Positions 1 to 58,759 of a stretch of 64,000 nt of DNA are shown here, in pieces. The number at the start of each line of letters is the position of its first letter. Position 1 is the stretch's first letter. Source of the DNA: Trileptium ribeirensis (Eukaryota; Nematoda; Enoplea; Enoplida; Thoracostomopsidae); assembly GCA_030248225.1 (NCBI GenBank), contig JASANE010029094.1:1-64000 (forward strand), in the 5' to 3' direction. Below the pieces are notes generated by a model. That model was not told where the DNA came from, did no database searches, and was given only the letters and a program-made list of their open reading frames with translations. The translations under genes and the position numbers were made by a program.

Positions 1-18
1 TATAAATAGCATTATAGT

Positions 19-28
19 CTTTTCATGT
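19..28 (-). promoter_or_regulatory. Shared upstream motif copy 1 (next gene off the left edge)
   Basis: Minus-strand ACATGAAAAG, identical to the seven copies ahead of the element's other genes. It lies just past the stop of the TBP-like gene (56), so it presumably serves a gene beginning at or left of the window edge. Confidence 0.7.
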
Positions 29-55
29 AGTGCTGTTGTTTTTTTTATTTTTTCT

Positions 56-574
56 TTATTTCAAAATTAAGCTATCTACATCATATACAATATCATACAT
101 ATCACCAAGAGACTTTACACCCGTTATTACAATTTTCCCTGTTCTAAAGACGGACAATGTCCCGCTTTTATGTCTAAAATTCAAACTTGGAAATAATTCC
201 GGTAGGTATGTTATAGTGTAATGGTCTCTCAGCTTTTCATACAATACATTTAAATCAATAGCAGCATTACATTTACACACACCAGTTACAGAACAAATTT
301 CAAATTCAAATTCATCAGTCCAGTATCCAAAATTTTTCAAAATTTTCTTCAAATTCTTCGCATCCAAACGCATATCATCCATCGACTTATATCCCATAAA
401 TACCAGTTTGCCATTTGGCCATACCATAACACTTCCGCTTGACAACTTTAAAGTTCCAGCACGAAACCGTCGTGGGTTGTATCGTAATCGCTCTAGAACA
501 CTGCTGAGTTGTAGCAAGCTAATGTTATTACTGGTTGTGGTCTTTACCACTAAGTTGGTTATTTTGAAGTCCAT
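56..574 (-). CDS. TATA-binding protein homologue encoded by the Polinton
   Basis: This 172-residue protein has the length and architecture of a complete TBP core, made of two imperfect repeats. Repeat 1 spans about residues 4-84 and has the YNPRRF block followed by VWPNGKLVFMGYKS. Repeat 2 spans about 90-172 and has PELFPSLNF followed by VFRTGKIVITGVKS. The aromatic residues that kink TATA DNA in TBP correspond to F37 and W52 in repeat 1 and F128 and F143 in repeat 2; one Phe is replaced by Trp, and both inter-strand loops are two residues shorter than in cellular TBP. The PELFP stirrup, where TFIIB binds cellular TBP, is largely kept. The ATG at 574 places residue 1 right at the start of the fold. 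The gene overlaps the NADAR gene by 47 nt and has no motif of its own, so it probably shares that transcript. Known TBPs nucleate transcription complexes; a role on the element's own promoters is inference. A captured cellular TBP is the likely origin. Confidence 0.9.
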   Translation of the reverse strand: MDFKITNLVVKTTTSNNISLLQLSSVLERLRYNPRRFRAGTLKLSSGSVMVWPNGKLVFMGYKSMDDMRLDAKNLKKILKNFGYWTDEFEFEICSVTGVCKCNAAIDLNVLYEKLRDHYTITYLPELFPSLNFRHKSGTLSVFRTGKIVITGVKSLGDMYDIVYDVDSLILK

Positions 575-1067
575 AGCGAATTGACATCCAAAGACGACCG
601 TACCAGTTGTCTTTAGTCCAAAGACTGATGTCGTTGACGTTTGCGTCTTCTATATATAGCCCAATACCGTTGCCAAATTTGCTTGCCTCTGCAATCACAG
701 CATTTTTTGTAGACATCAACAGGTCGTAAGTGGGGTTATGTTGATTGGCTTTAGCCTCCATTGCTTTAAGTACGACGTCATACCTGACCTTGTCCCATTC
801 TGGTTGGTCGAAAAATTTTAAATTTTCCCCAATATTTATTATCTTCTTTGGAGAACGCTCCATCAATATTTCATATCTTGCTTCATAGCAGTTGAAGTAA
901 TTCGCCTTTTCCGATTCATAATATTGCTGAATACTACTATATGTCATATCGTCCACCTTGAAGTCAGCGACATGTACGCTGCTCAACGGACAGTAGCCTG
1001 TAGCAAATAGCGCCAAGGCTCGACCGTCTTTCGATTCACAAATCTTAAACGTAGTTGATGTTGACAT
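528..1067 (-). CDS. NADAR (YbiA-like) domain protein
   Basis: This 179-residue protein matches the NADAR/YbiA (DUF1768) fold over nearly its full length. It has the N-terminal block with FKVDDMTYSSIQQYYESEKA (residues 36-55), then WDKVRYDVVLKAMEAK (91-106), LLMST (116-120), EASKFGNGIG (127-136) and the C-terminal GRLWMSIR (157-164). In the family the first block usually carries a Glu before the His/Tyr pair; here that position is Gln, which could affect catalysis. Characterised family members act on N-glycosidic or ADP-ribosyl-guanine linkages, and some reverse DNA ADP-ribosylation by toxins; a counter-defence or nucleotide-metabolism role here is inference. The ATG at 1067 is preferred over an upstream GTG at 1091 because it lies 36 nt from the shared motif (1103-1112), within the spacing seen for the other genes. 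Its 3' end overlaps the TBP-like gene by 47 nt. Confidence 0.85.
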   Translation of the reverse strand: MSTSTTFKICESKDGRALALFATGYCPLSSVHVADFKVDDMTYSSIQQYYESEKANYFNCYEARYEILMERSPKKIINIGENLKFFDQPEWDKVRYDVVLKAMEAKANQHNPTYDLLMSTKNAVIAEASKFGNGIGLYIEDANVNDISLWTKDNWYGRLWMSIRYGLQNNQLSGKDHNQ

Positions 1068-1072
1068 ATTGT

Positions 1073-1483
1073 TCAATATAAACGTTTCCACTCGATACTT
1101 TTCTTTTCATGTACTTCTTTACCTCTCCCTAAAGCTCCATTCGGTACACCTTTCATATACTCTGTTCGAAATTGGTCAATGTCTATTGGACGAGGAGCTG
1201 AAAATTTTCCGCTATCAGTTACCAAATACCTTAATATATCGTATAGGGTTGATCCTACAGATCCGTCAGAATACTCAACACGATTGTTTGCATCTTGCTT
1301 TATGGGTTTCAAATGACTGGAAAGGAGTTTGACCTTGGACTGTAGGCGCTTGGAAAATAGACTTGAAATATCTTCCTTTGGCTTGTCCTCAAGTGTATCT
1401 ACGCTTACTTTCACTGGTTCTCCATTAGTTTGAGTTTGTTTCTCTAACCAGCTGGGAGACACTAACAGATATCGTTTGGCCAT
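1073..1483 (-). CDS. Small conserved Polinton-type protein (GSTLYDILRYL type)
   Basis: This 136-residue protein has a variable N-terminal half and a better-defined C-terminal half. A basic helical stretch (about 43-60) is followed by a segment where a D-G-S-V-G-S turn leads into LYDILRYLV, and then P-x-D-x-D-Q-F and a GVPNGALGRG end. This layout resembles a short protein of unknown function that recurs in Polintons, where a Lys/Leu-rich helix precedes a G-S-x-x-x-D-L/I segment and a terminal N-V-P-like motif. I recognise the pattern, not a function. The start overlaps the end of the upstream gene by 22 nt. Its own motif copy (1526-1535) lies 43 nt upstream, inside that gene's coding sequence. 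Its last codons in turn contain the motif copy (1103-1112) that precedes the NADAR gene. Confidence 0.7.
   Translation of the reverse strand: MAKRYLLVSPSWLEKQTQTNGEPVKVSVDTLEDKPKEDISSLFSKRLQSKVKLLSSHLKPIKQDANNRVEYSDGSVGSTLYDILRYLVTDSGKFSAPRPIDIDQFRTEYMKGVPNGALGRGKEVHEKKSIEWKRLY
1103..1112 (-). promoter_or_regulatory. Shared upstream motif copy 2 (NADAR gene)
   Basis: ACATGAAAAG on the minus strand, 36 nt before the ATG at 1067. It lies inside the last codons of the preceding gene, where it is read as part of Val-His-Glu-Lys-Lys. Confidence 0.7.
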
Positions 1484-1764
1484 ACTGCAATCAATGTTTT
1501 TAAAAGATCCATTGTAACATGTTGTCTTTTCATGTTATCAGACAACTTCAGAGATGATAGTTTGTAAATTGTAGAACGTTGTTTGCGTAGCAGCTTAATC
1601 TGTTGCTCAGTAAGAGGAATGTTGCCATATAAAATATTATAACAAATTTCGCTCAAAGACTTGATTATGGATACAGGGGCAGACTTCATAAAACTTTTAA
1701 CACATTTCTTGTCAGTTTTAACCAAGGCACAGGCCAGAGATATTGTTGCGGAATGACGTTCCAT
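1462..1764 (-). CDS. Small conserved Polinton protein (NILxGNIPL motif)
   Basis: This protein has 100 residues from the ATG at 1764. Its centre reads ICYNILYGNIPLTEQQIK, followed by a basic L-R-K-Q stretch and a second K/R-rich helix. This matches a short, basic, uncharacterised protein present in many metazoan Polintons, whose core is a N-I/V-L-x-G-N-I/V-P-L segment followed by a Lys-rich helix. Function is unknown; the basic charge would suit nucleic-acid binding. An ATG inside the motif itself (1800) is in frame and would add 12 residues, but the 1764 start has the motif-to-start spacing (29 nt) seen for the neighbours. The coding region contains the motif copy for the next gene (1526-1535), read as Asn-Met-Lys-Arg. 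Confidence 0.75.
   Translation of the reverse strand: MERHSATISLACALVKTDKKCVKSFMKSAPVSIIKSLSEICYNILYGNIPLTEQQIKLLRKQRSTIYKLSSLKLSDNMKRQHVTMDLLKTLIAVWPNDIC
1526..1535 (-). promoter_or_regulatory. Shared upstream motif copy 3 (gene 1073-1483)
   Basis: ACATGAAAAG on the minus strand, 43 nt before the ATG at 1483. It is embedded in the coding sequence of the preceding small protein. Confidence 0.7.
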
Positions 1765-1792
1765 ATCTTTTATAGATATCAAGATAACGTGT

Positions 1793-1802
1793 CTTTTCAT
1801 GT
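1793..1802 (-). promoter_or_regulatory. Shared upstream motif copy 4 (gene 1462-1764)
   Basis: ACATGAAAAG on the minus strand, 29 nt before the ATG at 1764. The TGA stop codon of the ATPase gene (1797-1799) is contained in the motif. Confidence 0.7.
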
Positions 1803-2414
1803 AGGTTTGTATACTGCAGTTTGATCAAAAATATTTTCCCTAACACGTAAATCCTCAGGTGTATTAGGTTTCAGATCGATCATCAGATAGCTGTATGGCT
1901 TCTCATTGGTTGCCATTTCAAACGCTGTAGATAAAAAGTTGGGCTTATGAGGCCACATTTGTCTTCCTAATGTTGCAATCATTGATTTCGAACGTGGGTT
2001 TGGAAATAGAAATAAGTACTGAGCGTTTCTGGAAATTTCTGTCATGTACTTTCCAGAATGATAAAAGTTTTGCACTATAAATATAGTACTAATATTTGCA
2101 TGTCGCATTCGGGTAAACATATTTGCCAATGTTTTGTCATTTGAGTACTCCATTAAATCATCAAGAATGTAGAGTGTTTGTCCTTCATTCCTTTCAACCA
2201 CGGTGGGGAATCCTTCTTCAAACGTTAAATGATCCATTTCCTCTGACAATTGATGATACATAGGTTGCATCATTCCATAACACCAAACAACCTTTTCAAA
2301 TTGCTTATCAAATAGATTTTTACGCAACAGTTGAGCCACAAGATGAGTTTTCCCTACTCCTGTTGCGCCTGACACAATACAGGTAAACGGTACTTCTAAC
2401 GGTATTGACTCCAT
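1797..2414 (-). CDS. A32/FtsK-HerA-like DNA packaging ATPase
   Basis: This 205-residue P-loop ATPase matches the compact genome-packaging ATPases of Polintons, adintoviruses and large DNA viruses (poxvirus A32 family). The Walker A motif GATGVGKT is at residues 16-23. The Walker B motif TLYILDDL has acidic residues D85 and D86. A following IFIVQNFYHSG segment supplies the conserved Gln-Asn sensor typical of the family. In relatives it pumps the element's DNA into preformed capsids, which implies a capsid gene elsewhere in this element. The ATG at 2414 lies 28 nt from its motif copy. An upstream ATG at 2438 would leave only a few bases between motif and start and adds eight residues before the conserved fold. 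Confidence 0.93.
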   Translation of the reverse strand: MESIPLEVPFTCIVSGATGVGKTHLVAQLLRKNLFDKQFEKVVWCYGMMQPMYHQLSEEMDHLTFEEGFPTVVERNEGQTLYILDDLMEYSNDKTLANMFTRMRHANISTIFIVQNFYHSGKYMTEISRNAQYLFLFPNPRSKSMIATLGRQMWPHKPNFLSTAFEMATNEKPYSYLMIDLKPNTPEDLRVRENIFDQTAVYKPT

Positions 2415-2434
2415 TTTTAAAATTGATAAGTGGG

Positions 2435-3487
2435 TCATACTCTTTTCATGTCTTGTTCACCCACCCAGCTGTTGAATTTTTCAGGATATCCAAGCCATTT
2501 TACTAAATATTGACGAGTACCATCTTTCATTCTACGTTTTCGCAATATTTTCTCAATCTTAAATGTATCTCCTACACGTACCTTTTGAAGTTCCTGCTCG
2601 TACCATGTTCCCAAGATATCTTCTTTTCCGTAATCACTAATTTTGTAACGCGGTGGATCTGAAGTTATTCGTCTTGTAATATAAAATACTTCTTGAGACC
2701 ATTGGGGTTTGTACCCCTTATCGAAGATAAATTGAGCACTTGCAACTCTTACAGCATCGTTGAGCTTAAACTTGTATAAAATGTTTCTATGTCCTCGTGG
2801 AGGGTACAAAATGTTTAAAATATCAGATTCATTTTCAACAGTTACATCTACCGGACGGAAACCATAACGATTCTTTGTATGGTTGTAGTTATCAACAATG
2901 TCTTGTAAAATGTCGATATATCGATAGGTATTGTGTTTGGTAAGGTATCGGTATATTTTGGATTTCAAAGTACGGATACACCTCTCTGCAACTGCAGCCT
3001 TGGTTTCGACATTCTGAGCAGTGTAGCAAATTATTCCATACTGTTGACAAAGGTTTCTGAAGGTGATATTTGTAAATTCAGTTCCACGATCGGAGAAAAT
3101 ATGATTTGGACGGGTAATGCGAAACATGGTTTCCAATGCTTCACAAACTAATTTTGAGTTTTTAGACTTTAAGGGGGCAACTCTGACAAATTTAGACAGC
3201 ACATCTATAACCACTAGTAGATATTTGTTGCCATCATTATACCTAGACAATCGAGTCATATCTGCAAGATCAGCTTGCCATAAATCATTGAGACCCTTTG
3301 TTATTGTTTTAACCCTTCGAAACCTCTTCCGTTTGGGTTTATGAAGTGTATATGTATCCTGACCTTGTAGCCACTCTTTAACTTGCTGCTTGGAATAACC
3401 ATATTTTTCAGCATGTTGCAATAGTTTGTTTATCCCTGAAAACGCGGCAGGGCTTTTCAAGTTGTAATATAAATCTTCCAGCTTCAT
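2435..3487 (-). CDS. Polinton integrase: DDE core plus C-terminal chromodomain
   Basis: This 350-residue retroviral-type integrase has its catalytic triad at D73 (in WQADLADM), D133 (in FSDRGTEF) and E169 (in AAVAERC). The D-to-E spacing is exactly the D,D35E arrangement. A C-terminal chromodomain occupies about 298-350, with KIEKILRKR, YLVKWLGYP and SWV. The enzyme would join the element's ends to host chromosomal DNA, and the chromodomain would direct it to modified histones, as known for this class. There is no clear zinc-binding HHCC region at the N-terminus, only a helical lead-in. The ATG at 3487 is 27 nt from its motif copy. The last codons (Asp-Met-Lys-Arg) contain the motif copy of the ATPase gene. 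All three catalytic residues are present, so this gene looks intact. Confidence 0.95.
   Translation of the reverse strand: MKLEDLYYNLKSPAAFSGINKLLQHAEKYGYSKQQVKEWLQGQDTYTLHKPKRKRFRRVKTITKGLNDLWQADLADMTRLSRYNDGNKYLLVVIDVLSKFVRVAPLKSKNSKLVCEALETMFRITRPNHIFSDRGTEFTNITFRNLCQQYGIICYTAQNVETKAAVAERCIRTLKSKIYRYLTKHNTYRYIDILQDIVDNYNHTKNRYGFRPVDVTVENESDILNILYPPRGHRNILYKFKLNDAVRVASAQFIFDKGYKPQWSQEVFYITRRITSDPPRYKISDYGKEDILGTWYEQELQKVRVGDTFKIEKILRKRRMKDGTRQYLVKWLGYPEKFNSWVGEQDMKRV
2442..2451 (-). promoter_or_regulatory. Shared upstream motif copy 5 (ATPase gene)
   Basis: ACATGAAAAG on the minus strand, 28 nt before the preferred ATG at 2414. It lies inside the final codons of the integrase. Confidence 0.7.
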
Positions 3488-3509
3488 GATTAATATATAC
3501 AAGATGCTA

Positions 3510-3800
3510 TTATCTTTTCATGTTTATTGGGTAACTGGTTACAATCTTATCTTTATAAATATCATATACAATCCTCACTGTACATGTTAACATACCACAG
3601 GGCATTACCACACCAACAATATCATCAAATTGTTTCTCCATTATATATTCATTGTTTCCAATATACTTTATATAATCAAATTCAGTCAAACATTTTTCAA
3701 TCACCCATTGTCTCGATTCTTCTGTCACAACAAACCACGACGTACTGCTGTTTTCATACTCCAAATGTTTCGTTTGCGCGTGATAGGAATAGGTCAGCAT
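3510..3800 (-). CDS. Uncharacterised 96-residue protein overlapping the membrane-protein gene
   Basis: I do not recognise this 96-residue protein. It has no membrane segment or signal peptide and a mixed alpha/beta-like composition, with two Cys near the C-terminus (in VVMPCGMLTCTV). It starts with an ATG inside the last 47 nt of the preceding gene, in the +1 frame relative to it, and has no motif of its own. It may therefore be translated from the same transcript by reinitiation or coupling. The stop codon falls directly after Met-Lys-Arg encoded by the integrase gene's motif copy. A +1 frameshift fusion with the upstream membrane protein is an alternative. Compact placement between two clear genes supports it being real. 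Confidence 0.6.
   Translation of the reverse strand: MLTYSYHAQTKHLEYENSSTSWFVVTEESRQWVIEKCLTEFDYIKYIGNNEYIMEKQFDDIVGVVMPCGMLTCTVRIVYDIYKDKIVTSYPINMKR
3514..3523 (-). promoter_or_regulatory. Shared upstream motif copy 6 (integrase gene)
   Basis: ACATGAAAAG on the minus strand, 27 nt before the integrase ATG at 3487. It overlaps the last sense codons of the 96-residue ORF. Confidence 0.7.
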
Positions 3801-4371
3801 TTCTAATGTTTACTCTAAACAGTCGTTTTTCAAAGACCCGTTGCAGATTGAAGGTTGACAATTTCGCGATGAAGGAGTATTCCAGATTGCAATTTGTTAA
3901 ATAAAATCCCTTGTATGTATCGTCTGTTTGAATCAGCACGAGGAGATTCTTATACGGTACCACAAACCTTCGAAATAGATGTTCAGATACATCAAATAGA
4001 TAGACGACTTTTTCACTCCACAGTTTGATGGAACGAGGAGGGTGAAGTATTATCTCAAATTGTAGATTATCACTTGCTCGATTGACCCAATGAATGTTGT
4101 AACCACGAGCTGGAAACCAAGATTCAATTCGAGGCTTTGTCCAATCTTCGAAACATAACGGTCCATTGAGTGATATTCCTTCAACACAGGATTTCTTTTC
4201 ATGCTTGTTAACCAGAAAACCAGTCTCTATTGCGATTGTTGTAAGCAGGGTAACGACTATTGCAATCACTTTTTTCAAATCAATTCTTTTACCACAGAAA
4301 TTTTGCTTCTTCTGATATATTTCGGGTTCTTGTTCCACAAATTCAGAAAACGAAACAGATTTCTTAGCCAT
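3754..4371 (-). CDS. Single-pass membrane protein of the element, function unknown
   Basis: This protein has 205 residues. A charged N-terminal tail of about 34 residues is followed by one hydrophobic segment (about 35-54, VIAIVVTLLTTIAIETGFLV), and then a 150-residue domain with Cys at about 63 and 73 that could pair. The basic residues just before the segment suggest a type II orientation, with the large domain outside the cytosol or on a virion membrane; that is inference. I do not recognise the domain. The ATG at 4371 lies 30 nt from its motif copy. The 3' end overlaps the next gene by 47 nt. Position between polymerase and integrase genes, together with the motif, supports it being part of the element. 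Confidence 0.7.
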   Translation of the reverse strand: MAKKSVSFSEFVEQEPEIYQKKQNFCGKRIDLKKVIAIVVTLLTTIAIETGFLVNKHEKKSCVEGISLNGPLCFEDWTKPRIESWFPARGYNIHWVNRASDNLQFEIILHPPRSIKLWSEKVVYLFDVSEHLFRRFVVPYKNLLVLIQTDDTYKGFYLTNCNLEYSFIAKLSTFNLQRVFEKRLFRVNIRNADLFLSRANETFGV

Positions 4372-4484
4372 ATTAACTTGTAAAATATAGTATGTGCATC
4401 CTTTTCATGTATTTCATGCTAATTTTTTAAATTTTATTATAAATACAATAAAATACATATATCAAAACATACAAAGTATAAATA
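4372..4484 (-). terminator. Gap after polymerase gene with possible poly(A) signal
   Basis: Minus-strand AATAAA at 4433-4438 lies about 50 nt past the polymerase stop and before the next motif copy (4401-4410). It could be a poly(A) signal, but the stretch is very AT-rich so chance is possible. Confidence 0.3.
4401..4410 (-). promoter_or_regulatory. Shared upstream motif copy 7 (membrane-protein gene)
   Basis: ACATGAAAAG on the minus strand, 30 nt before the ATG at 4371. It sits in a true intergenic gap here, so its conservation is not explained by coding constraint. Confidence 0.75.
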
Positions 4485-6089
4485 TCAATCAGAACAATCC
4501 ATAATATCACAATGTCCGTATGGAATAGAAGTTACCCCATCTAGTAAAATATATCGCTTATCGTCATAAGCACTCAAACTAATCTTATTCTGCTCAACCG
4601 TATACAGTTGATGTTTATTGTTTGAAATCTTTTTCATTAAATGTCTTAGTCTAGTGGTATTTCTTAGAGTCTGGATGTAATCATCCATATGTATAGCTTT
4701 TTTGAGTGTTTGTTTTTTGACGCCCTTTGCTCTCTTTTTCTCAACACCTCCACATTTTAACGAGTACATTTTTGGTTTCAATCCGCAAAACTCTTCAATA
4801 GGAATCCCAGCAGTTTCATCTTTCATTTTACCCAAAACTTTTTTGTTTTTGGTTGAATGTAAAAAGTGGTCGGGTGAATAGTCACTGGTGTCAAAATATT
4901 CTATGTCCTCCTTCATGTCACCGTAGATATCCTCTGTGTATATATCATAGCAGAGACTGTCGGTATCGGTAAATAGCAGATGACAATCATATCTGCTCTT
5001 GATATATTTGTAGTGGAAATCGTACATTAACATTTTGGAAAGCTCAAGAACAGTAAAACCCACGTAAATTGGTTTGCATAAACAAACACTAGGTTTCTTC
5101 ATTGAAACCGCCACTAAATTTTCATCAAAGATTGTACTGCCACTGTAACGAGGGTTCGATACCAACTTTTGAAACTTTTTCGGACAATTTATAAGTTTAA
5201 TGTCCTTATAGGCCCGTACATTTTCCATAGTTTTTCCAAAGACTGCGTTATTTAGCAGTTTAAATAAATCCTTTTCAAAATCACTCTTTGCCTGTTTGCG
5301 TTTTTCGGTATTAAACAAAATGTAGGGTTTCATCCAATCCCGCTGGTTAAACTGAATTGCCCTATGAATTTTAGTTACCTTGAGACCCAATTCGGTATAC
5401 AGTTTCAGATTCCTAGCATGTACGATATATTTAGCCTTGTTGTTCAAATTAGGGACAAGTTTTCTAATTGGGGTATATTTCATTCGGAAATCCTCCTTTA
5501 CTTGGAGGCAATACGGGGACAACATTGAGTCTTCAATTTTCATAGATTCCGGAGCAAGAGGGTAATCACTGTGTAAGGTGTGTAAATAATCTGGGTATTC
5601 CAGATCAACTTCAAGCACATAACCAATATCCTCATCGTTTTCCCAATTTATCTTTGACAGATGACTCTCTTCTACCCACTTGAATCCATCTACGGGTAAC
5701 TTCTGAACCATAGTCCATCCATATAAATTATTCGCATCCAAGTACATTATATAGTTTGACTCCTTAGTTGGGTCATAATTTTCAAGATACTTGTTGTTGG
5801 CTTTGGCATATCGGTGTGAAATCATTGAAATGCCTCCTCGTATGCCATGTTCAAAAAACATGTACATATTAGAGTCTTTCAACAATTGTAACCGCACGCC
5901 TGTCAACTTTAAACAAGCATCCCATCCAAAACTTGGGAGTGTTATATAATGTACCGGGTCCAACTTATAATTATCAATAGCAAAATTTCTAAAACTTTCA
6001 AATACATCACATAGTAATAAAGCATCAATCTTCACATAGCGATCATGGTATTTTTCGATGTTCTCTAAATTCAGTTCATTCCAAATTTT
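4485..6089 (-). pseudogene. Protein-primed DNA polymerase B, C-terminal (polymerase) part after an in-frame stop
   Basis: This is the direct in-frame continuation of 6090-8189 beyond a TAA at 6090-6092. The frame is open from 6089 to the stop near 4485, and there is no ATG at its start (the first possible initiator is a GTG at 6035). Counting from that GTG, polymerase motif A is at YLDANNLYGW (Asp 100), motif B at KLLNNAVFGKTMENVR (259-274) and motif C at FTDTDS (Asp 357 and 359). These are the residues that bind the two catalytic metals in family B enzymes. The exonuclease motifs lie in the upstream part, so the break divides proofreading from polymerisation. Everything else is well preserved, which points to a recent lesion, a sequence error or recoding. 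Confidence 0.9.
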
Positions 6090-8189
6090 TTATGCATGTT
6101 TATAATTATCTTTAGTTATACTTGGTTCATTTAGTTTATTGTAGAACGCATCCATAGAAGGTAGCTGCGTATCATCAAAGCGTTCCCAATGGTCCATATA
6201 ATCATAGGGGTACAGCCCCTTTCGTAATAATAGTTCTGTATTGTCGCCAAACTCCTCCGTCATTGCCGGAAATTTACCATCCTTCTTTAAATTGTCCACC
6301 AACGCTTGAAGGGAAGACGATAGAAATTGAAAACTGTCTTTAAATTTGAGAGACCAAGTATATTTTTTAGGTTTTGGACTCTCTTCCGCTGCCTTGGTAT
6401 CTTCAGCCGCAATATTATCCAAAAGTTCGTTATCCTCTATATCGCTATCTTCGCCCTCACCTAGTTGATCAAGAGAAATCACATCAGACAGTTCGTCTTC
6501 GTCAATTTCTAGATGAGGTTGAATATTTGGTTGCATTGAGTCGTGTATAGCAAAGAGATGAGCGAGGTATCCATTGGGGTCATATGTTGCAGATCGTTGT
6601 TGTTGTTCCACAATTTGATGTTGAAGTTTGATGCTAAAGGACAGATAATCCTCAGCACCTTTGGGTATACAATCGAGCTCCATTTTGAGTTGATTGGTTA
6701 ATTTACCAATCTCTTGCATGATTAGATGACCATCATACTTTCGCAAGTTGTGGAAAAATATATTGACATCCCGGTTTATCTTGTAGCTAATGTTGCATTC
6801 ATTGTGGACTGCACCGCGGAATCGACCACAAAGATGACAGTGGTCTCTGACACGATCGTAAAGTAGTTGTTTGTCACAAATGAAACAGTCTTTAGTGTAA
6901 TGGTATTGATACCAGTCGTCTTTAGTCATCTGCAGCGGTATTTGATTATTGACACGCTCTTGGTACTTGATACCCAATTCAATTACATTGAGTAAAAAGT
7001 TTTTGACACAGTCTTTACCGCGATATACCACAGGTTTCCCCATTTCCTTTGTATCGTCTCCACAACATTGCAAAATGTCAATCATCCCATATCCACACAC
7101 TTGATGTTTTTGATAAGCTTCGGTGTATGAAGTTGATGGACATGGTTGACAAGAATCGATGGGGAGAAGTAGCGTTTCAAAATCAGCATAGATGGTGTAC
7201 GGAGCTCGAAGCATTTTATGGGTGTTTCGGAATTGAAGAATGTCGTCTTTGGGGAATGTTATTCGAGTATATTCGTTATTTTTACACATTTCTGTATGGA
7301 GATCCAGCTTTGCTTGCGAATATTGAGGGAGTAGACATCGTTGACAAAAATACTTTTTGTGTTGATATCCTCGTTGGCTATGGAGCAACCGATCCAAATC
7401 CTTGATCCAGCAATAATGTCCTTTGTATAACAGCAGATTAACCACTCGTTCATAGGGTCCCTCGTATATCCGAAGAGGAACTAGTTTGCCATCGTCGCAC
7501 GATATCACGCTGACACCAATATTGTTGAGCTTTTCAAATTTGTTGATGTCGCTGACTTGTACTGGGAAGTTGATGCCGTCAAACTTAGGATTATCAACAT
7601 ATTGTTCATATTTAGATTGACGAGTAGGGTGTTCATTGATTGGAACCGGGTACAGAGCTGACAATATTGCCCATTGAAAACATCTATTATCAGTGTTTTG
7701 AACATTGATTATCGCCTTTTTCGACTGAACTGTTTTTGGGAGAGGCTTGTACGTAGCCCCTCTTAGTCCAACGTATCGAGCCAGATGTAAATCCAAATGT
7801 TCCACTTGTTTGACTATCCAGCCAGATCCACGTTGAACAAACGTGTCAATGTTCTTTAAAATGTCGTCAAAAATCATTGATGTATGTTGATTGACGGTTG
7901 AAAAATTGAGTATCCGTTGTAATTTGCCAGAGAAGGTTGCGCTGATTGTCGTATCAGGATCCATATCCTTCTCGAACGTAACCTTCATTCCTACATACGC
8001 CTTGAGTCCATTCCATGTAGAAAGTCGTTCTTTGATTGCATCCTCCAGCTGTCGTCTGCTATGATTAAGGAAAACAGCAGGGTCCACTACAGGACGACGT
8101 GATGTAATTTGATAGCTCTCCAAAAAACCACGAAGTGGTCTTGAAAGCAACGAGAGCATAAAACCAAGCAGTTCAGAAATGAAAGCCAT
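6090..8189 (-). CDS. Protein-primed DNA polymerase B, N-terminal part (exonuclease, endonuclease-VII-like insert)
   Basis: This ORF has 699 codons and ends at an in-frame TAA (6090-6092). In order it contains an N-terminal region with DNRCFQWAILSALYP (167-181) and HYCWIKDLDRLL (258-269), which is a widespread module of Polinton and adintovirus polymerases. Next come a Cys/His cluster YFCQRC...H...C (280-302), exonuclease motif I YADFETLL (D336, E338), and an endonuclease-VII-like zinc block CFIC...DHCHLCGRFRG...HNEC (435-465). Exonuclease motif II is FFHNLRKYDGHLI (478-490). An acidic insert of roughly 90 residues (523-610) follows, and then LKFKDSFQFLSSSL. The gene would replicate the element from a terminal protein primer. 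Its motif copy lies 45 nt before the ATG at 8189, the longest spacing in the set. It is the first gene of the array and the outermost on this side. Confidence 0.92.
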   Translation of the reverse strand: MAFISELLGFMLSLLSRPLRGFLESYQITSRRPVVDPAVFLNHSRRQLEDAIKERLSTWNGLKAYVGMKVTFEKDMDPDTTISATFSGKLQRILNFSTVNQHTSMIFDDILKNIDTFVQRGSGWIVKQVEHLDLHLARYVGLRGATYKPLPKTVQSKKAIINVQNTDNRCFQWAILSALYPVPINEHPTRQSKYEQYVDNPKFDGINFPVQVSDINKFEKLNNIGVSVISCDDGKLVPLRIYEGPYERVVNLLLYKGHYCWIKDLDRLLHSQRGYQHKKYFCQRCLLPQYSQAKLDLHTEMCKNNEYTRITFPKDDILQFRNTHKMLRAPYTIYADFETLLLPIDSCQPCPSTSYTEAYQKHQVCGYGMIDILQCCGDDTKEMGKPVVYRGKDCVKNFLLNVIELGIKYQERVNNQIPLQMTKDDWYQYHYTKDCFICDKQLLYDRVRDHCHLCGRFRGAVHNECNISYKINRDVNIFFHNLRKYDGHLIMQEIGKLTNQLKMELDCIPKGAEDYLSFSIKLQHQIVEQQQRSATYDPNGYLAHLFAIHDSMQPNIQPHLEIDEDELSDVISLDQLGEGEDSDIEDNELLDNIAAEDTKAAEESPKPKKYTWSLKFKDSFQFLSSSLQALVDNLKKDGKFPAMTEEFGDNTELLLRKGLYPYDYMDHWERFDDTQLPSMDAFYNKLNEPSITKDNYKHA

Positions 8190-8233
8190 ATCAAACTGAT
8201 TGAAATTTTTGAAATTACACAGCCTTTTATACC

Positions 8234-8243
8234 CTTTTCATGT
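8234..8243 (-). promoter_or_regulatory. Shared upstream motif copy 8 (polymerase gene)
   Basis: ACATGAAAAG on the minus strand in non-coding DNA, 45 nt before the polymerase ATG at 8189. It is followed three bases later by TATAAAAG, the only copy with a near-canonical TATA box beside it. Confidence 0.75.
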
Positions 8244-8344
8244 ATTCTCTGCTGACGCTAATTGGTTGAATTTTTGGAATTGTGCCAATGGAAGCTTCTA
8301 GAACATTCCAAAGTGATGAGTCATTAATTATAATGAATGCCTGT

Positions 8345-20193: not shown

Positions 20194-20473
20194 GTAAGTC
20201 AATAACAGTCAGTTAAATATGATATAATATGTACGAAAAGCCTGAAATAAGTTCGCTTTAAACTTTTGGTTATTTGTAGTGTGGCTTGGTACCGTAATTT
20301 GTCATATTAATAGTCATTCAGAAAACAGCTTTGCTATAACCAGAACCACAAATGAAGTCCCGATCGTCAGTGGCCTAAATAACTTCTCTTCACGTTCGTT
20401 CTGCTTTGCCACAAGTTGAAACATTAATTAAAATAATAAACTAATACAGTAAAAAATCAGTAAATTATATTGT

Positions 20474-21572
20474 TTCCTCATCGTCGAATTAAATCTAGTT
20501 TTTTTGCAACCTAGGTAAAAAAATTGAGCAGCAACTGGGCGCGATTCCTAGTTGGCTTTGCATCGTCGGATTAAATCTGAATTTTTTTAGACTTAAATAT
20601 AAAGATTGAATAGCGACTGAGTGCGATTTCTAGTTGGCTTTGAATCGTCGAATTATCTCTACGTTTTTCCGACTGAAGTAAAAAATTGAGGAACAACTGA
20701 GTGCGAATTTTAGTTGGCTTTGCATCGTCGAATTATATCTATGTTTTTACGACTTAAGTAAAAAATTGAGCAGCAACTCAGTGTGATTTCTAGTTGGATT
20801 TTCATTGTCGAATTAAATCTACGTTTTTGCGACTTAAGTAAAAAATTTAGCAGAAACTAAGTGCGACTTTTAGTTGGTTAGCATCGTCGAATTAGATCTA
20901 CGTTTTTGCGACTTAAATAAAACAAAATTGAGCAGTAACTGAATGCGATTTCTAGTTGGCTTTGCATCGTCGAATTATACCTGAGTTTTTCCGACTTAAG
21001 TAAAAAATTGAGAAGCAATTCAGTGCGATTTTTAGTAGGCTTTGCATCGTCGAATTAGATCTATGTTTTTGCGACTTAAATAAAAAAATTGTTTGTAACT
21101 GAGCGCGATTACTAGTTGGCTTTGCATCGTCGTATTAAATCTACATTTATTTGCGACTTAAGTACAAAAATGGGCAGCAATTCAATGCTAATTTTAGTTG
21201 ACTTTGCATCGTCGAATTAGATCTACGTTTTTGCGACTTAAATAAAATTTTTTTTTGCAACTGAGCGCGATTATTAGTTGGCTTTGCATTGTCGTATTAA
21301 ATCTACGTTTATTTGCAACTTAAGTAAAAAATGAGCAGCAACTGAGTGTGAGTTCTAGTTGGCTTTGTATCGTCGAATTAAATCTACAGTTTTTCGAAAA
21401 CATTGAGCAGCAACTGAGTGCTAATTTTGGTTGGCTTTTCATCGTCGAATTAAATTAACGTTTTTTGCGAATTAACTAAAAATATTGAACATCAACTGAG
21501 TGCGATTACTAGGTGGCTTTGCTTCGTCGAATCACATCGACATTATTCTACTTAAATAAAAAATTAGCAGCA
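20474..21572. repeat. Tandem array, about 80-bp unit, 14 copies
   Basis: Fourteen copies of a unit centred on GCATCGTCGAATTAAATCTACG, followed by TTTTTGCGACTTAAGTAAAAAATTGAGCAGCAACTGAG-type sequence, are spaced 80-84 bp. From about 20880 two unit variants alternate (TCGAATTAGATC and TCGTATTAAATC), producing a 162-bp dimeric period. It lies about 280 bp after exon 3. Confidence 0.9.
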
Positions 21573-34690: not shown

Positions 34691-35354
34691 CAAAATGTTA
34701 GAATGCTTCTATTAAATATCATGTAAGGTATAATGAGTGCATACAGCTATACATTCATTGTCATATAACTACACAAATCTATAAATTTATGCAGATATAT
34801 AAATATATTCTGATATATTTATGCATATATGTCATTATTATATAGTTTGGGGACACTAGTGGAGAATGATGTCCTGGCGGTATGTCCTCGAACTTTTCAT
34901 CAATTTTTGCTAATTTGTGCCAATTTTTGGCATTGTGTGCCAATTTTCTTCGGTTTGCATTAACTCTTCCGCGCGTCGTATAATGTCAATTATGAATATA
35001 GCTTGAGGAGTAGGGCCGACCCCCAGGCAGGTAACCGCCTTCTAGACATGGGCACCTATGCTATATATCTACATAGTATATATAATTTATTTTACTTTGT
35101 CCTGACCGGAGGTCAATTTGTTTCATCTTAGATCATTCTCATGTTAAGACTTGAAATGTCGAACCTTTTAATAGGAACATGTAGTTTCTCGTACTTCTCC
35201 CAATTTCTATTTTGCAGCACATAGATAAACCTACAATTTTTCTTTATCAGTATTAATGGCTATTTGTTTCGTTATGCCAGATGTTTGATAAAATTGTTTC
35301 ATAAAAGTTTTTCAACGATTGATTGAACAGAGCGGTACAATTAATTAATGTTCA

Positions 35355-36830
35355 CTCGCTATTTTTAATGGTTACAAAATACATAGTGTGTTGTTACTTC
35401 CTCGTCATTATTGGAAATAACTTGCCTTGTATTTATAAGTTATAAACGATATTGCATAGATTTCGGATGGAAAATGTTATACTCTCTTCGACGCTATTTA
35501 ATGGTTACAAAATACAATGATGCATAGCGTGTTGTTACTTCTGCGTCATTATTAGAAATATGTTCCCTTGTATTTGTATGTTATAAACGATATTGCATAG
35601 ATTTCGGATAGAAAAGTTTCTAATTCTTCACGCTAGTTAATGGTTACAAAATACAATGATGCATAGCGTGTTGTTACTTCTTCGGATAGAAAAGTTTCTA
35701 CTCTCTCGACGCTAGTTAATGGTTACAAAATACAATGATGCATAGCGTGTTGTTACTTCTGCGTCATTATTAGAAATATGTTCCCTTGTGTTTGTATGTT
35801 ATAAACGATATTGCACAGATTTCGTATAGAAGAGTTTCTTCTCTCTTCGACGCTATTTAATGGTTACAAAATACAATGATGCATAGCGTGTTGTTATTTC
35901 TGCGTCATTATTAGAAATAACTTCCCTTGTATTTGTATGTTATAAACGATATTGCATAGATTTCGGATAGAAAAGTTTCTACTCTCTTCGACGCTAGTTA
36001 ATGGTTACAAAATACAATGATGCATAGCGTGTTGTTACTTCTGCGTCATTATTAGAAATATGTTCCCTTGTATTTGTATGTTATAAACGATATTGCATAG
36101 ATTTCGGATAGAAAAGTTTCTACGACGCTATTTAATGGTTACAAAATACAATGATGCATAGCGTGTTGTTACTTCTGCGTCATTATTGGAAATAACTTCC
36201 TTTGTATTTGTATGTTATAAACGACATTGCTTCTTATAGAAAAGTCTCTACTCTCTTCGACGCGATTGAATTGTTTCAAAATGCAATGATACATAGCGTG
36301 TTGTTACTTCTGCGTCATTATTAGAAATATGTTCCCTTGTATTTGTATATTATAAACGATATTGCATAAGTTTCGGATAGAAAAGTTTCTACTCTCTTCG
36401 ACGCTATTTAATGGTTACAAAATACAATGATGCATAGCGTGTTGTTACTTCTGCGTCATTATTAGAAATATGTTCCCTTGTATTTGTATGTTATAAACGA
36501 TATTGCATAGATTTCGGATAGAAAAGTTTCTACTCTCTTCGACGCTATTTAATGGTTACAAAATACAATGATGCATAGCGTGTTGTTACTTCTGTGTCAT
36601 TATTAGAAATATCTTCCCTTGTATTTGTATGTTATAAACGACATTGCATAGATTTCGGATAGAAAAGTTTCTACTCTCTTCGACGCGATTGAATTGTTAC
36701 ACAATGCAATGATACATAGCGAGTTATTACTTCCGCATCATTATTAGAAATAACTTCCTTTGTATTTGTATGTTATAAACGATATTGCATTAATTTCGGA
36801 TAGAAAAGTTTCTACTCTCTTCGACGTTTT
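35355..36830. repeat. Tandem array, 141-bp unit, about 11 copies
   Basis: The repeated unit contains AATGGTTACAAAATACAATG, ATGCATAGCGTGTTGTTACT, TGCGTCATTATTAGAAATA and ATTGCATAGATTTCGGATAG. Copy starts fall at about 141-bp steps (35501, 35640, 35860, 36001, 36411, 36552). One copy (35640-35718) has lost its middle. Neighbouring copies are nearly identical, suggesting recent homogenisation. Confidence 0.93.
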
Positions 36831-38406
36831 AGTTACAATTGAATTATCTGTGACAGAAGATTTTAACATACCTTTGCAAAAGTATTCGGAGTTGGATTTA
36901 ATGTTAGTTGAAGATATTTTCCAAAGAATTGGCAGTTTTAGCAGTAGTGATCTAAATATGTGTTAATTTTGTGCCTCTATTTACTGACAGTTAGTAAGAA
37001 TAAAAGCGAGTTAAATTACCGATTAAACTTTTGATCCTACACTATCCATATTTATAACTAACCATTCGAAAAAGTCATACATAACAAGAATTTTTTAACG
37101 CTCAGTGTTAAATAGTAATTGAAACAATTGTTCTGTATCTGAAGTTTTGTAGCAAAATAATATACATTTTTGGAAATTTCATTTTGATAACAGCAAACTT
37201 TCAAAGAAAATCTTTTCCGGCTGGGCGTATGTTTGTTGGTCCTACCTTAGACCTCATAAACAAAATGTACTATAGTAATCATAGGGAATGCTGTATTTTA
37301 AGTATACAAACGCGCAGTAATCTCAAGTCTCAAATTGAAATCTGTTAGCAGTTCGATTCAGGATTTTCGATACCACTTGTACGAAATTACAAGCAAGGCG
37401 AAATGTCATGATTTGTGATATCAAAACACACCTCAGGGATTTATCTAGTATGATTATTAAAATTTTTCTAGTGGACCAGATTTTGTATTATTCCAGATTA
37501 GTGGCAAATTTAGTTCAAAATTTCAGCTAATTTCAGTCACACGTATCGTTTACCCCAGGGCTGGTATTGTTAAATCGCGACAGCTAAAATTATGTTTACA
37601 TTATTTTTTGCTGTAAATTACGCAAAATTTAACTTATGTATTTCATTGGTTGAAAGTTGCTTAATGCTAATTTTTTCGAGCCCATGATTGGCAAAATCTG
37701 TATAATTTTAACTTCATTGTTTCAAGTTTACCATTCAATTATTAGACCATATGTTGAGAAACATGCGTGCTGTTTACAAGCATTGAAATAGCTATCACAG
37801 ATAATAATCTTTGTAACTGCTGTAGATAGTCTTCGATCACTATGTAACAATTAAACTGCTCAACTGCGATACAGGTATTCTAGTACAGAAAACACAATAA
37901 CAACTCCCGAGATTTATCCTGACACTTTATCTATGAACAGCTTGTGGCAATCACGCAATAAGCGCTGTATCTCTGTGAAACTATTTTATGTTGTTCGCCA
38001 AGAAATCTGAAGTTTATCATTACTATAATAAATTTAGTCCGTGAAAAAAATTTATTAAAACTGTAAAATATTTTAGCTGTTTTGAGCCAAGTACTCAAAG
38101 CTACAAATCTAGGAACAATAAAAGTTGTGAAGTATAATGAAAGTCATATATATCGAAGCAATTAATGAAAAATTTGAATAAAACCGATTCGTATATTGTT
38201 TAGTTCGATTATTTGCATTCCTAGGAACCCTCTGGAGGCCTTATTATCTTCGAACAAAGACTGATCTGACTGGGCGTCGCTTATCAAGCGGTTACAGATT
38301 TACGATTTTGCTCTGTTATATTAAAACATAACATGCGACCTAATTTATTTGGCAAAATTCCTGCTTTAATATAACTATTAATTAGTATAAACCTTATTCG
38401 ACCTGA

Positions 38407-45570: not shown

Positions 45571-45796
45571 CCTATATATTTCTATCTTAATGCAACGACT
45601 ACTAATTTTTGATTAACCCTTTAATGCCCGAGCTAGTTTGTGTATCATGCAATGTTTGGCAAACCAAAGCATCGTATCCTGGTCGTATTGGTGAGAACGG
45701 CGTACAAAAACCACTGGGCTATCTGATAACTGTTGCTCGAAATCTGAACTATGGAATAACAACACGTGCGCAAACATCCGCTGCGCGACATACTTA

Positions 45797-46218
45797 TGCC
45801 GCGTTTACGTTATAAAGGACCCCCATGTGAAAGTTTTGTCCCGCAATGGGCCATTTGGCCACCCCATCCAGTAGTATACGGTATATACTTACGCTATAGA
45901 ATGCAAACGAGACACCATCAACTCAATTATAGTTGCCAAATTTACCTATTGTATATTACTGACGGTGTCAAGGATACCGTCCACAAACACATTATATAAG
46001 GCGTGTAAATAACAGACAGCATGGTGTAGCTAACGCCATGTAAATTTTATGGTGTGGTCTACACCATACTATTATCGACACTGCACTACCTATGTATACT
46101 ATCTGAAAATACAATCACAAACCCCATGGTGTCAAAGACACCATTTATTTGATGGTGGCGAGACACTGAGGGTGAACAAAAGTTTCACATGGGGGTTCTA
46201 TATGACGTAAACGCAGCA
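45797..46218. mobile_element. MITE, copy B
   Basis: The left end GCGTTTACGTTATAAAGGAC and right end (ATATGACGTAAACGC context) form inverted repeats of about 45 bp. The CCCCCATGTGAAAGTTTTGTC and TTTCACATGGGGG segments are as in 56533-57005. Confidence 0.8.
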
Positions 46219-54129: not shown

Positions 54130-54780
54130 GATGGCATTCCATTAAGGCCTATAAAGGCATGTAGTAGCTAGGCTGTGCATAAACTCGCTCAGTTCCTGAT
54201 ACCGATTCTAGAGCCCATGACAAAAAACCAACATTCGATGAAAAGTTCGTTAGACTTTGCTAATGATATCACCAGGTCCAGTTTTGGTACGAAGTTTTTA
54301 GCTAGCTTTGACATCAAAGCGCTTTTTACTAATGTTCCTGTTGATGAAATACTTGGATTTATTCGCACTGCCGCAGATAACAATGAAATCGTGTCTCCAT
54401 TTCCTACCGATACATTGATACAAGCCGTCAGTATATGTGTTAAAAACATCAATTTCTTGTTCAAAAGTCAAATTTATGAGCAGGTCGACGGTGTGGACAT
54501 AGGTTACCAATTGGTCCCCACTCTGGCTAACATTTTCATATCAAAATATGAGCTTAAATGGCTTGAAAAATGTCCGTGTAGTTTTAAGCTAACATGGTAC
54601 AAAAGATACGTGGATGACACATTTGTTGATTTCGATAATCGACATCAATGTCAACTATTCCTAGAATACTTCAATAACCAACATCTCTTAATTAAATCCA
54701 GTGTTGAAACGGAAAGTGAAGGAACGATTTCGTTTTTAGATGTCAAAGTTTCTAAAACTCGTAACCGAATGAATGAATAA
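54130..54780 (+). pseudogene. Penelope-like reverse transcriptase remnant
   Basis: A translated stretch of about 200 residues matches the core of Penelope-like reverse transcriptases. It has HKLAQFLIPILEPMT, then LASFDIKALFTNVPVDEIL (catalytic Asp), then LANIFIS, and the catalytic YKRYVDDTF box. The frame extends upstream through LRPIKACSS but is broken by an in-frame TAG just before the alanine-valine-histidine segment. The residues before LANIF deviate from the usual Gly-Ser-Pro-Leu-type motif. The thumb and GIY-YIG endonuclease regions are missing. It is a dead fragment, inserted just downstream of the RGS gene. Confidence 0.85.
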
Positions 54781-56532
54781 ATTAAAGAATGAATCCCCCA
54801 GAATGCTCATGAATGCTCGTAACAACATCTGGTAACAAATAGAACTTAACACCACTAGCAATGTCGTTACATACAAACGCTTATGTGTAACAACACACCA
54901 AAGCTGTTACGCAGAACCCAGTTTGCGTAACAACTCATGAATGTTGTTATCTTGTCCATGCGTCCTCCTTCCTAGTTTGTTTAAACACTGATATAATAAT
55001 AAAGATTGCTGCAGCGATTACTTACTTTACTCGGTTACAGCAGTTGCAGCAGCAGCGGAACAGTTAATGGTTGCTATTACCTCAGGCAAACACAACTGTA
55101 ATAATGTTGAAACATGAGCGTAGCTAAACATCCTTAACATACACATTCACGTTTCTTCGGCAAACTATTCACTCCCTTTCCCTTAACCCAGTGGGACTCT
55201 GCATCGGATAACCGTGTTGTGCATCGAAGCAGTATTAACCTCTGTATTCCTCCACGTACGCCAGCCATTAGGCTCTCGGCAACATTAAAGCTTAGGAAAT
55301 TATAGCAATTATAACTTCCACGCCAATTTTGATGCTCAATCTGCTCCTACAAACTAGTGTAGCATCATGGCCGTGTGTGATTTAAGCGACAGTGATTGGT
55401 ATTGGAACGAGATCAACTATTCGTTGAGAATGTTTCTGAACGTATAATAGTAAACCAATTTAGCCCACCCGGGTCGAACGGTGGATCACGCCCTGGGACC
55501 TTTTGGAACCATGTAGTCGTTGTAAGTCTCCATTTTGAGCCTTTCCAAAACATAGCGGTTCCGTTACATTATTTTACTATTAAAGGTACAGTTAGCTAAA
55601 ATAAATATGGATGTAGCAAAATACCTTTATTGTAAATATATTGATGCTCACCTGGCTATTTTTTTAGATTTATTATTGATAGCTCGAATAAAGGTGGATC
55701 TGCTAAAATGTCTTTACAGAGCGAACATTTTGATTGGTCCTGGTGAATTTACTATAAGCAAACTCTATTGAAGCTGCTTTCTTTTCTTCTGTTATATTAT
55801 TGGTTTAACTTGTAGACAGCATTGTTGAAAAAACTTGCAAAAATTGCTACCAAATGTTTTTCTACTACACGATTCGTACTCAAGAATTGCTTGACTGACC
55901 TGTGCACCATTCATGTGTATCGCTTTGCTTCCTGTTTATTGTAGGTTTTGATGCAAGCCAGGTGTAGCTTTCTTGGATGGCCTAGTACTTTGTGATCGAT
56001 GATAGCGTTGTCATTCACATGACTGTCCTGATTTACAATCTTAAATGCAACTAAACTTTTAATGGGTGCTACATACATTGTCTTAGGGTCCTGAATACAT
56101 TGTATTATGATATACCAAGCTCGTGGTATTGAAAACAACCCATGTATATTGTTGATTCATACTGTGAGTTTCAGTTGAACCTGCATGCGTTTGTCCATTG
56201 CTTTCGCGGTAACCTTATAGTTGTAAATCGTACCAATTTAGTGGGCAAATTAGTAAACACATACAACTTCACATATCGGGAATTTTCCGCTTTCCGTTTG
56301 CAATTTGTTTGATGCCGGTTTTTTGTTTTTTCTGTTAAAAATAGAAATATTCTATTAAATACCACTTAGCAGCTTGCAATTAAAACATTATCACCTTAGC
56401 CACAGAAATTCAGGTTGAGTCAATTTTTAGTTTGACTATAAAATTTGAATTGTTCTTTATTTATTGGTGACTATGCATTTCAACCGAAGTGTCGCGCCGT
56501 ATAATTAATAATTATTACCGATTCGTGAGCTA
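54781..56532. other. Non-coding stretch, nothing recognised
   Basis: No convincing genes. A few TGTTAC/GTAACA-type short inverted words occur near 54810-54960. Confidence 0.5.
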
Positions 56533-57005
56533 TGCAACGTTTACGTTATAAAGTACCCCCATGTGAAAGTTTTGTCCTGCTATGGTCTAGACCATACCAT
56601 CCAGAGGTATACAGTGTATACCTACACTATATAATAACACAGATGGTGTATGAAACACCATCAACTTAGCTATATTTTTATAAAGCTGGGCAGCACATGT
56701 TCCCGTCACAAATTATATATATTTATTTATTTTTTAGAATATGTGACAGTGTCCGTACCACCATTTAAATAGCAAATGGTAGCGGCATCAAGAAGTAAAA
56801 ATAAAAATATGGTGTCTCTGACACCATGCAACACTGTTTCAAATTTAATAGTCTAGGCTACACCATACCAATATAGATAGTATATTAGTGGTGTGTACCA
56901 TCAAAAACACTATGGTGTAGCATACGCCATGTAATGGATGGTGGCAGAGACACCCAGGGTGGACAAAACTTTCACATGGGGGTCCTTTATAACGGAAACG
57001 TTGTA
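56533..57005. mobile_element. MITE, copy C (best preserved)
   Basis: It has inverted ends of about 45 bp, CAACGTTTACGTTATAAAG at left and CTTTATAACGGAAACGTTG at right, with CCCCCATGTGAAAGTTTTGTCC and its complement just inside. It is 473 bp with several internal GGTGT/ACACC palindromes and no coding capacity. Confidence 0.85.
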
Positions 57006-58759
57006 TTAGTATCGAGATGTTTAAGCAGCTTAAACATACAGACCTAAATAGGTCAAGATGATTGGAGAAAATTAGTATCGCGTGGAGTTGTATGTTTTTT
57101 ATTTTTCTCTCTCATAAAATATGTGAAGCTAGTGTTAATTTGCGGTCGGTATTTGGTTATATCATATTTTGGATAAAACCAGCAGTTGTTGCTACACATG
57201 TATTTACCGCATGGTCTAATTTATAGAAAAGTGCCGTATAAAGCGAAGTGTCCACTTGCCTGAACGCGGTAGTCCTTTAACCCTGTTCAAAAAACATTTC
57301 GTGTAGGAATTCCGCTGAATAAGCAGGGATTATGTAACACAAATTGACGAAGACTGGGCACATTTATTCAGGAAATACAATATAAAGAAAACGTAGCTGT
57401 TTCGTCCGGTATCACCGTCAGGATAGGAAGTTATATCGTTAAACAAAACTGCACCTTTGTGCAGGGAATGGTGCCCTGACGAATCCGGTTTCCCCCACTC
57501 CCTTGTGAAGCGTTAGTTGACCTAGTAGAATCGGTTAGCTTAGTAGACCGCAGACGGGTTTGTTAGGGTGTTCGGCCTGGCCACTGTACGGTCAATGTTT
57601 GTAGTGGTATAGAGGTCGATCCGAGGGAGGGTCATCCCCTGAGCCTGCTCACAGATAATAAGTCTGACCAGCCTTTCCCCATTCTCTGTGTAACCCCACT
57701 TATTTATTGTCCCCATTTTCCATGCCCATGCATGTGGATGCACTGTTGGATACCCCTGATTGTCCTAACTGGAATCCTACCATAACGGGTAACTCTTGGG
57801 AACACGTGGGAGGTCCTCCCAGGGCCCTTCGTTCTATCTAGTTTCTTTTTACGGTGTAAAGAATAAAGCCCCGTTCTTACAAGTTTTCGAACCGAATTCT
57901 GAGTATGCCAATTAATTTTGAGAAGGCATTTGAGACTGCTTGTTGTCTTAGTTGCCTGTTTTGATCTAGGTTCTTAGTTGTAACCTACCGTTCTCTTGGT
58001 TTCACGATGGACTCGGCTTAACGCTTACCCTATAGGTATTTTTGAATAACACTACCTATCGCTAGTAAATAAATATGTACATATCAACACTTTATTCACA
58101 TAAGCACCAACCGTTAAGTATATACATGGCAGCGAAACAAGCTTAGGTACTCAATTACGATACTGCGCAGGGTACTGTAAACATATGTATACCATTGTAA
58201 TGTGATTTCTCATCGCGGTCACTTCAGTGGATTAACACACGAAACTCTATATCCTCTCATTTTCGTTACCCCATGATTGTGTGTCCCCAAGGTAGGTGTG
58301 CGTTAGTTGACTGGTTCTTGGCTTTTACTACTGCTTGTACACTATTCCAAACATTTAATTTGCACTTTCCATCATATTAACAGAGCCTGGAGTCACCTGC
58401 GCAAACCCTGTCAGACGCTGTGGACCTATGAACTAAGCTTCTATTCCGTAGTCAAAATGTTGGACACCAAGACTGAGCGATAAGTGAAGATAGTTACTTA
58501 ATCCGGTAGACAAACGTTGCGTCTACTAGATAAAGGACGACGTTGCCTGCCCTCCCTAATGCGCGACTAAACTTAAAATGACACCGCCTACCATCTTATT
58601 TTGGGAATTGCCACATTTTTTAACAGAACGCATCTTTGTGATTGCATAATCTAGTAAAAGCCATTTAAGAACAGCAGTAACGTCGTATGAAATTGGTAAT
58701 TTTTGGTTGGCAAATTCGTTAGTGAAATCCACAAATTGTTGAAAACATAATTTTGTGAG
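57006..58759. other. Non-coding; GC-richer block 57290-57860 of probable transposon origin
   Basis: The block differs in composition from its surroundings and lacks a usable reading frame. It ends near AATAAAGCCCC, a string also found at about 52410, suggesting a repeat family. Confidence 0.35.

Follow-up and report, generated by a model that had tools for sequence, protein, structure and literature searches.

Why a mobile DNA element should carry a gene for the TATA-binding protein (TBP), one of the most constrained eukaryotic proteins, is the question raised by the left end of a 64,000-nucleotide stretch of the nematode Trileptium ribeirensis genome (contig JASANE010029094.1, positions 1 to 64,000; hereafter the window). 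An open reading frame (ORF) at 56..574 encodes a TBP and, judged by its gene content, this end of the window belongs to an element of the Polinton (Maverick) type. The TBP is complete and conserved. We regard it as probable, on the strength of sequence comparisons, that it is a permanent component of these elements, passed down in this host with an old lineage of them, and that it is paired with the element's own TATA-like promoters while the host polymerase is used.

A TATA-binding protein in a Polinton-type gene array

The original prediction, made without naming a strand, had proposed a 172-residue product with both TBP repeats; the reading frame was borne out and lies on the minus strand, where 172 codons are open and complete from 574 to 56. 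A profile search matched Pfam TBP (PF00352) to the product at E = 1.2e-26 in two stretches covering both repeats, yeast TBP (1tbp) matched residues 6-162 at E = 7.4e-17, and the predicted structure is a two-repeat saddle. The ORF belongs to the TBP family, and a chance reading frame is ruled out by the profile match and the predicted fold. As anticipated, three of the four DNA-kinking phenylalanines of the family are retained (F99, F190, and F207 in yeast numbering) and F116 is replaced by Trp, leaving all four positions aromatic, and a PELFP stirrup and shortened loops are present, each hairpin being two residues shorter than in yeast in the 1tbp alignment. The protein thus shares family, repeats, fold, three kinking Phe, and PELF stirrup with yeast, human, and archaeal TBPs, but it is only 25-27% identical to solved eukaryotic and archaeal TBPs and differs from cellular TBPs in the F116 replacement, the shorter hairpins, altered contact residues in the second repeat, the lack of an N-terminal extension and of an intron in the ORF, and its location on a mobile element.

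The gene had been placed in one array with an integrase, an ATPase, and a polymerase, which domain matches and PolB identity confirm. All of these lie on the minus strand together with a NADAR-domain gene: DNA polymerase B (PolB; 4485..8189, two same-frame ORFs split by an in-frame stop at 6090-6092), an integrase with a C-terminal chromodomain (2435..3487; rve, E = 1.4e-13; Chromo, E = 2.2e-10), a packaging-type ATPase (1797..2414; Pox_A32, E = 2.3e-8), and the NADAR gene (528..1067; PF08719, E = 4e-22), whose 3′ end overlaps the TBP start. PolB, a retrovirus-like integrase, and a packaging ATPase are the core genes of Polintons or Mavericks, and the PolB is 46-47% identical to that of a Polinton-type contig in IMG/VR (L001/L002). 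The left part of the element falls outside the window, and because PolB carries one in-frame stop, the copy in the window is unlikely to be fully intact. Polintons, Mavericks, and adintoviruses resemble the element in their PolB, chromodomain integrase, and packaging-type ATPase and differ from it in that here TBP and NADAR are fixed in one gene block; term searches of four papers (PMC11071308, PMC11071296, PMC10120064, and PMC4642659) found no TBP.

The association extends across the host assembly (687,459,628 bases, 20,229 contigs). All 150 scored hits of a TBP search (150 scored of 649 candidates) matched far above chance, and 20 loci picked across the identity range (L011-L030) were fetched. 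The NADAR gene and an ORF of no known domain, g1483, precede TBP in 20 of 20 loci, down to 29% TBP identity, and an ATPase match lies within the stretch in 18 of 20 (partial in L020). Conversely, 19 of the first 20 ATPase matches (150 scored of 1055 candidates) had a TBP on the same contig at a distance of about 1.8 kb, the remaining one lying at a contig edge. The TBPs form three classes by identity to the window protein: the first (L011-L014, 90-95%, with a 78% member, L039), the second (L015-L019, 55-57%), and the third (L020-L030, 29-36%), in which F190 is replaced by His, Asn, or Tyr. A missing profile match, a different fold, or absence from related elements had been named beforehand as grounds for abandoning the prediction; instead, the Pfam match is significant, the predicted fold is a saddle, and element-type loci of the host carry the gene beside NADAR and ATPase.

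Purifying selection across copies, which the prediction had named as a check, is indicated by the ratios of nonsynonymous to synonymous substitution (dN/dS; Nei-Gojobori), with medians of 0.31 in the first class (range 0.13-1.45; 61 pairs from 12 rows representing nine places), 0.16 in the second (0.05-0.24; 10 pairs), and 0.28 in the third (0-1.73; 49 usable of 52 pairs); dS has reached saturation in comparisons of the first class with the second, where 2 of 60 pairs were usable. That the TBP is passive cargo, inserted from the host by chance, would fit the many decaying copies and the stops in some TBP copies, but is very improbable given the fixed synteny, these dN/dS medians, and a clade apart from cellular TBPs. 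The host's own TBP moreover lies as separate exons on a different contig, C9496, matching a spider TBP-domain protein used as query at 59% and 61% (150 scored of 471 candidates), and on this ground, together with the separate clade, we dropped the idea that the element gene is a copy of the host TBP.

In a tree built without 16 DNA-contact columns, the element TBPs of this genome are united with two further proteins, P0002 and P0003, in a single clade (100/96) and do not group with cellular TBPs. P0002 (56%) and P0003 (51%) are the two relatives that the window TBP found among 5.8 billion proteins. Profile searching brought in cellular TBPs as well as another set of short TBPs, the P0026 type; with the contact columns removed, the element TBPs and this type stand apart from cellular TBPs at 94/85, below the level that the tool marks with a star (earlier trees gave 89/69 and 93/82). 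Searching with seven P0026-type TBPs listed many more, two of them annotated in Mercenaria mercenaria and some in metagenome-assembled genomes of symbionts, the latter perhaps contamination from the animal. This large group (P0026, P0124, P0138, P0174, and P0192) has proteins of 170-192 residues with altered contact residues of their own.

No relative was confirmed in IMG/VR scans with the window TBP, TBP alignments A1 and A3, the ATPase, or the C-terminal PolB ORF, nor was one found in a GTDB scan with alignment A4; one IMG/VR contig, L001/L002, was recovered with a PolB DNA pattern and with an alignment of two PolB sequences. In the INPHARED phage set only the TBP of Haloarcula virus HJTV-2 matched, in two records, and PHROGs returned a single row for TBP (E = 0.035).

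A strand-specific box that follows TBP class

Most element genes are preceded by a strand-specific box of 9-10 bases. In the window, ACATGAAAAG occurs eight times on the minus strand of positions 1-8300, compared with a mean of 0.04 and a maximum of two in 500 shuffles; CATGAAAAG has no copy on the plus strand and a single one in the remaining 55.7 kb. Seven copies stand 27-45 nt from their last base to an ATG: before PolB (8234..8243, 45 nt), g4371 (4401..4410, 30 nt), the integrase (3514..3523, 27 nt), the ATPase (2442..2451, 28 nt), g1764 (1793..1802, 29 nt), g1483 (1526..1535, 43 nt), and NADAR, and with it the NADAR-TBP pair (1103..1112, 36 nt). The start codons of NADAR, g1764, the ATPase, and the integrase were set by us downstream of the box, their first ATG falling within it. 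The eighth copy (19..28) follows TBP, ahead of the next gene off the window, and a ninth box, GCATGAAAAG, is located at 4204 within g4371, with 394 nt separating it from the next start.

In a set of 11 loci with 87 boxes, an ORF begins no more than 100 nt from 67 of them, as against 9-16% of random points, and 49 of the 87 lie 20-50 nt before an ORF start (36 of these at 20-30 nt). This spacing bears on the idea that the box acts at the RNA level, as a leader, a terminator, or a poly(A) signal, or is bound by a different protein of the element. The box frequently overlaps the 3′ end of the preceding gene, as would suit such a role, and shared descent alone would yield the agreement with TBP class described below; the box nevertheless also precedes PolB, which is the first gene and has no element gene ahead of it within the window, and the 20-50 nt spacing likewise speaks against it, so that we hold this explanation to be decidedly improbable. 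Two further candidates were dropped: a trans-splicing site, as no pyrimidine tract was seen by eye, and an early TBP promoter built on the TATATATA near 650, a common string that here falls within the NADAR reading frame. Scans of the window for tRNA and Rfam families gave no matches.

The 3′ half of the box, AAAAG, is constant, and the 5′ half is CATG in the window class, CATA or CATG in the second, and CTTA in the third. Counted on the TBP strand and the opposite strand, respectively, the first class (window plus four loci) has CATGAAAAG 9-11/0; the second (five loci) has CATAAAAAG 3-7/0, CATGAAAAG 1-2/0, and CTTAAAA(A)G 0-1/0-1; and the third (11 loci) has CTTAAAA(A)G 3-9/0-1 and CATGAAAAG 0-1/0. 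Canonical TATAAAA(A)G occurs 0-2 times per strand in all classes. An unforced scan with NNNNAAAAG returned the same leaders: CATG in 43 of 158 occurrences in the first class, CATA in 26 and CATG in 8 of 138 in the second, and CTTA in 39 of 350 in the third, followed by TCTT (14) and GCTT (11). The 5′ half matches the TBP class at every one of 29 loci, namely 21 of 21 and then 8 of 8 fetched after the rule was formed; of these later loci, seven are third-class (CTTAAAA(A)G 4-7/0-1) and one is first-class (CATGAAAAG 6/0), with stray boxes limited to one CATGAAAAG in L033, one CATAAAAAG each in L037 and L040, and one CTTAAAA(A)G in L039. At five orthologous sites, the boxes of the first and second classes are identical at 42 of 45 positions, compared with 81 of 175 in the flanks. 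As a control, 13.8 of the 17.4 kb of L002 yielded no TBP at E up to 10 and showed no leading NNNN before AAAAG. Separately, the third-class loci L022, L036, L037, and L040 are rich in a short repeat resembling TAGGGGTACAA.

DNA contacts and a candidate element-owned initiation system

Positions 159, 161, 190, 194, 203, and 205 (yeast numbering) belong to the second repeat, which in known TBP structures is turned towards the 5′ half of the TATA box, the half that differs between classes here. They read S, T, F, N (S in L013, L014, and L039), T, S in the first and second classes; N, V or A, H/N/Y, K/H/R/Q, V/T/I, L in the third; and the canonical N, V, F, I, V, L in the host TBP exon. The first and second classes differ at position 122, V (L in L014) versus Q; position 124 is M or L versus L. 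The promoter-recognition factor with altered DNA preference proposed in the original prediction gains indirect support from the box ahead of most element genes, whose 5′ half differs between TBP classes, and from the changes at residues that face DNA in solved TBPs; such a factor would bind the box and capture the host polymerase. Positions 194, 203, and 205, mostly I, V, and L in 118 other alignment rows, are N, T, and S in the window TBP. I194, V203, and L205 are presumably the positions changed in the altered-specificity triple mutants of the TGTAAA type; all three are changed here as well, the difference being that the window TBP is a natural protein with CATGAAAAG as its candidate box. 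According to PMC10005294, three second-repeat changes alter the TATA sequence used by TBP.

In the system that we propose, the element would produce its own TBP, which would recognise, some tens of bases upstream of start codons, the element's box (CATGAAAAG in the window; among relatives, CATAAAAAG or CATGAAAAG, and CTTAAAA(A)G) and bend it in the manner of TBP. The largely kept C-terminal stirrup would hold host TFIIB, and host RNA polymerase II would thereby be positioned at the genes of the element, whose transcripts would have short leaders; the overlapping NADAR and TBP genes would share one box. Box binding, recruitment of TFIIB and polymerase, the short leaders, and any order in time are steps that we infer.

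Alternatively, the boxes might be weak TATA boxes read by the host TBP, with the element TBP, for example, competing for TFIIB or other partners and so damping host transcription or silencing. Two of the three box types are A/T-only across seven bases, PolB also has a canonical TATA string, and the element TBP retains the fold and part of the stirrup. On the other hand, the G in the window box should be poorly read by the host TBP, the DNA face is changed at residues constant in most cellular TBPs, the host's included, and a decoy would have no need to keep a changed DNA face under constraint. We consider this alternative unlikely.

Several observations weigh against an element-owned TBP paired with its own boxes. 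Box class and TBP class may simply share descent, and the near-copies among the loci (L020/L021; L024/L025/L026) leave few independent changes of the two. The first two classes have the same second-repeat contacts, yet one has CATG, with a G in the 5′ half of CATGAAAAG, and the other mostly CATA, as in CATAAAAAG, so no residue-to-base rule emerges; on these grounds, we rejected the idea that second-repeat changes alone fix the G of the box. Residue E186, which we assume to contact TFIIB, is Leu in the window TBP. The host TBP might read CATAAAAAG and CTTAAAAAG, because both are A/T-rich, and the canonical TATAAAAGG also stands beside the PolB box, after it. Neither TBP nor g3800, each of which overlaps the preceding gene, has its own box. 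Some other 10-mer reached seven copies in a shuffle (mean largest count 2.67), the PolB of the window copy carries a stop, and the sole TBP-less control (L001/L002) is an IMG/VR contig rather than an element of this host.

Virophages drive their genes from the promoter motif of the giant virus on which they depend. They are likewise small related DNA elements with one motif ahead of their genes, but their reading factor comes from the helper virus, whereas the window element itself carries a candidate factor. Virus-borne TBPs are already known as a kind from giant viruses and mirusviruses, which have the same fold; these viruses are far larger, and their TBPs show low identity to the element TBP in structure matches. 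In the gene clusters of PMC10132985, TBP is present in 59% of mirusvirus genomes versus 0% of Nucleocytoviricota. The TBP of HJTV-2 is also virus-borne (27% identity over 89%), its host being an archaeon. Literature searches, mostly of article listings with passages of PMC10132985 and PMC10675990, turned up no account of Polinton-type elements with a fixed TBP and matching boxes, and how Polinton genes are switched on was not addressed in the papers that they found.

As for origin, we lean, with some reserve, towards one ancient TBP capture by a Polinton-type lineage followed by a private initiation system in which TBP and box (CATG, CATA, or CTTA before AAAAG) changed together, which would amount to a natural orthogonal TBP-box series in one host. 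The P0026-type TBPs, including the two from Mercenaria mercenaria, may sit in the same kind of element, and the system could be widespread in marine invertebrates. If the boxes are element promoters, they would mark promoters, predict start sites, and aid in finding further copies, and a single host with many diverged TBPs, each with a repeated box, would make TBP-DNA specificity and its evolution testable by sequence. Such a pairing suggests that a mobile element could separate its own transcription from that of its host.

Neighbouring genes and other features of the window

The remaining element genes, all on the minus strand, are ORFs: g1483 (1073..1483, no Pfam match), upstream of NADAR and TBP; g1764 (1462..1764), without a known domain; g3800 (3510..3800, no Pfam match); and g4371 (3754..4371), without a known domain, which recurs downstream of TBP in third-class loci by tblastn. 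As candidates for the double jelly-roll capsid protein of Polintons, ORFs of 438 and 428 residues follow TBP in L012 and L026; one has a weak Capsid_N match (E = 0.087) and the other no Pfam match. NADAR proteins presumably act on ADP-ribosylated nucleic acids in bacteria, and a counter-defence role is conceivable for the NADAR gene, kept beside TBP in all fetched loci.

Elsewhere, the window contains tandem arrays at 35347-36979 (unit of about 141 nt) and 20436-21563 (about 80 nt) and a reverse transcriptase fragment at 54175-54780 on the plus strand (RVT_1, E = 1.3e-8). Inverted copies of a 46-52 nt sequence at 45790-45849, 56531-56585, and 56947-57012 resemble the ends of small DNA transposons.
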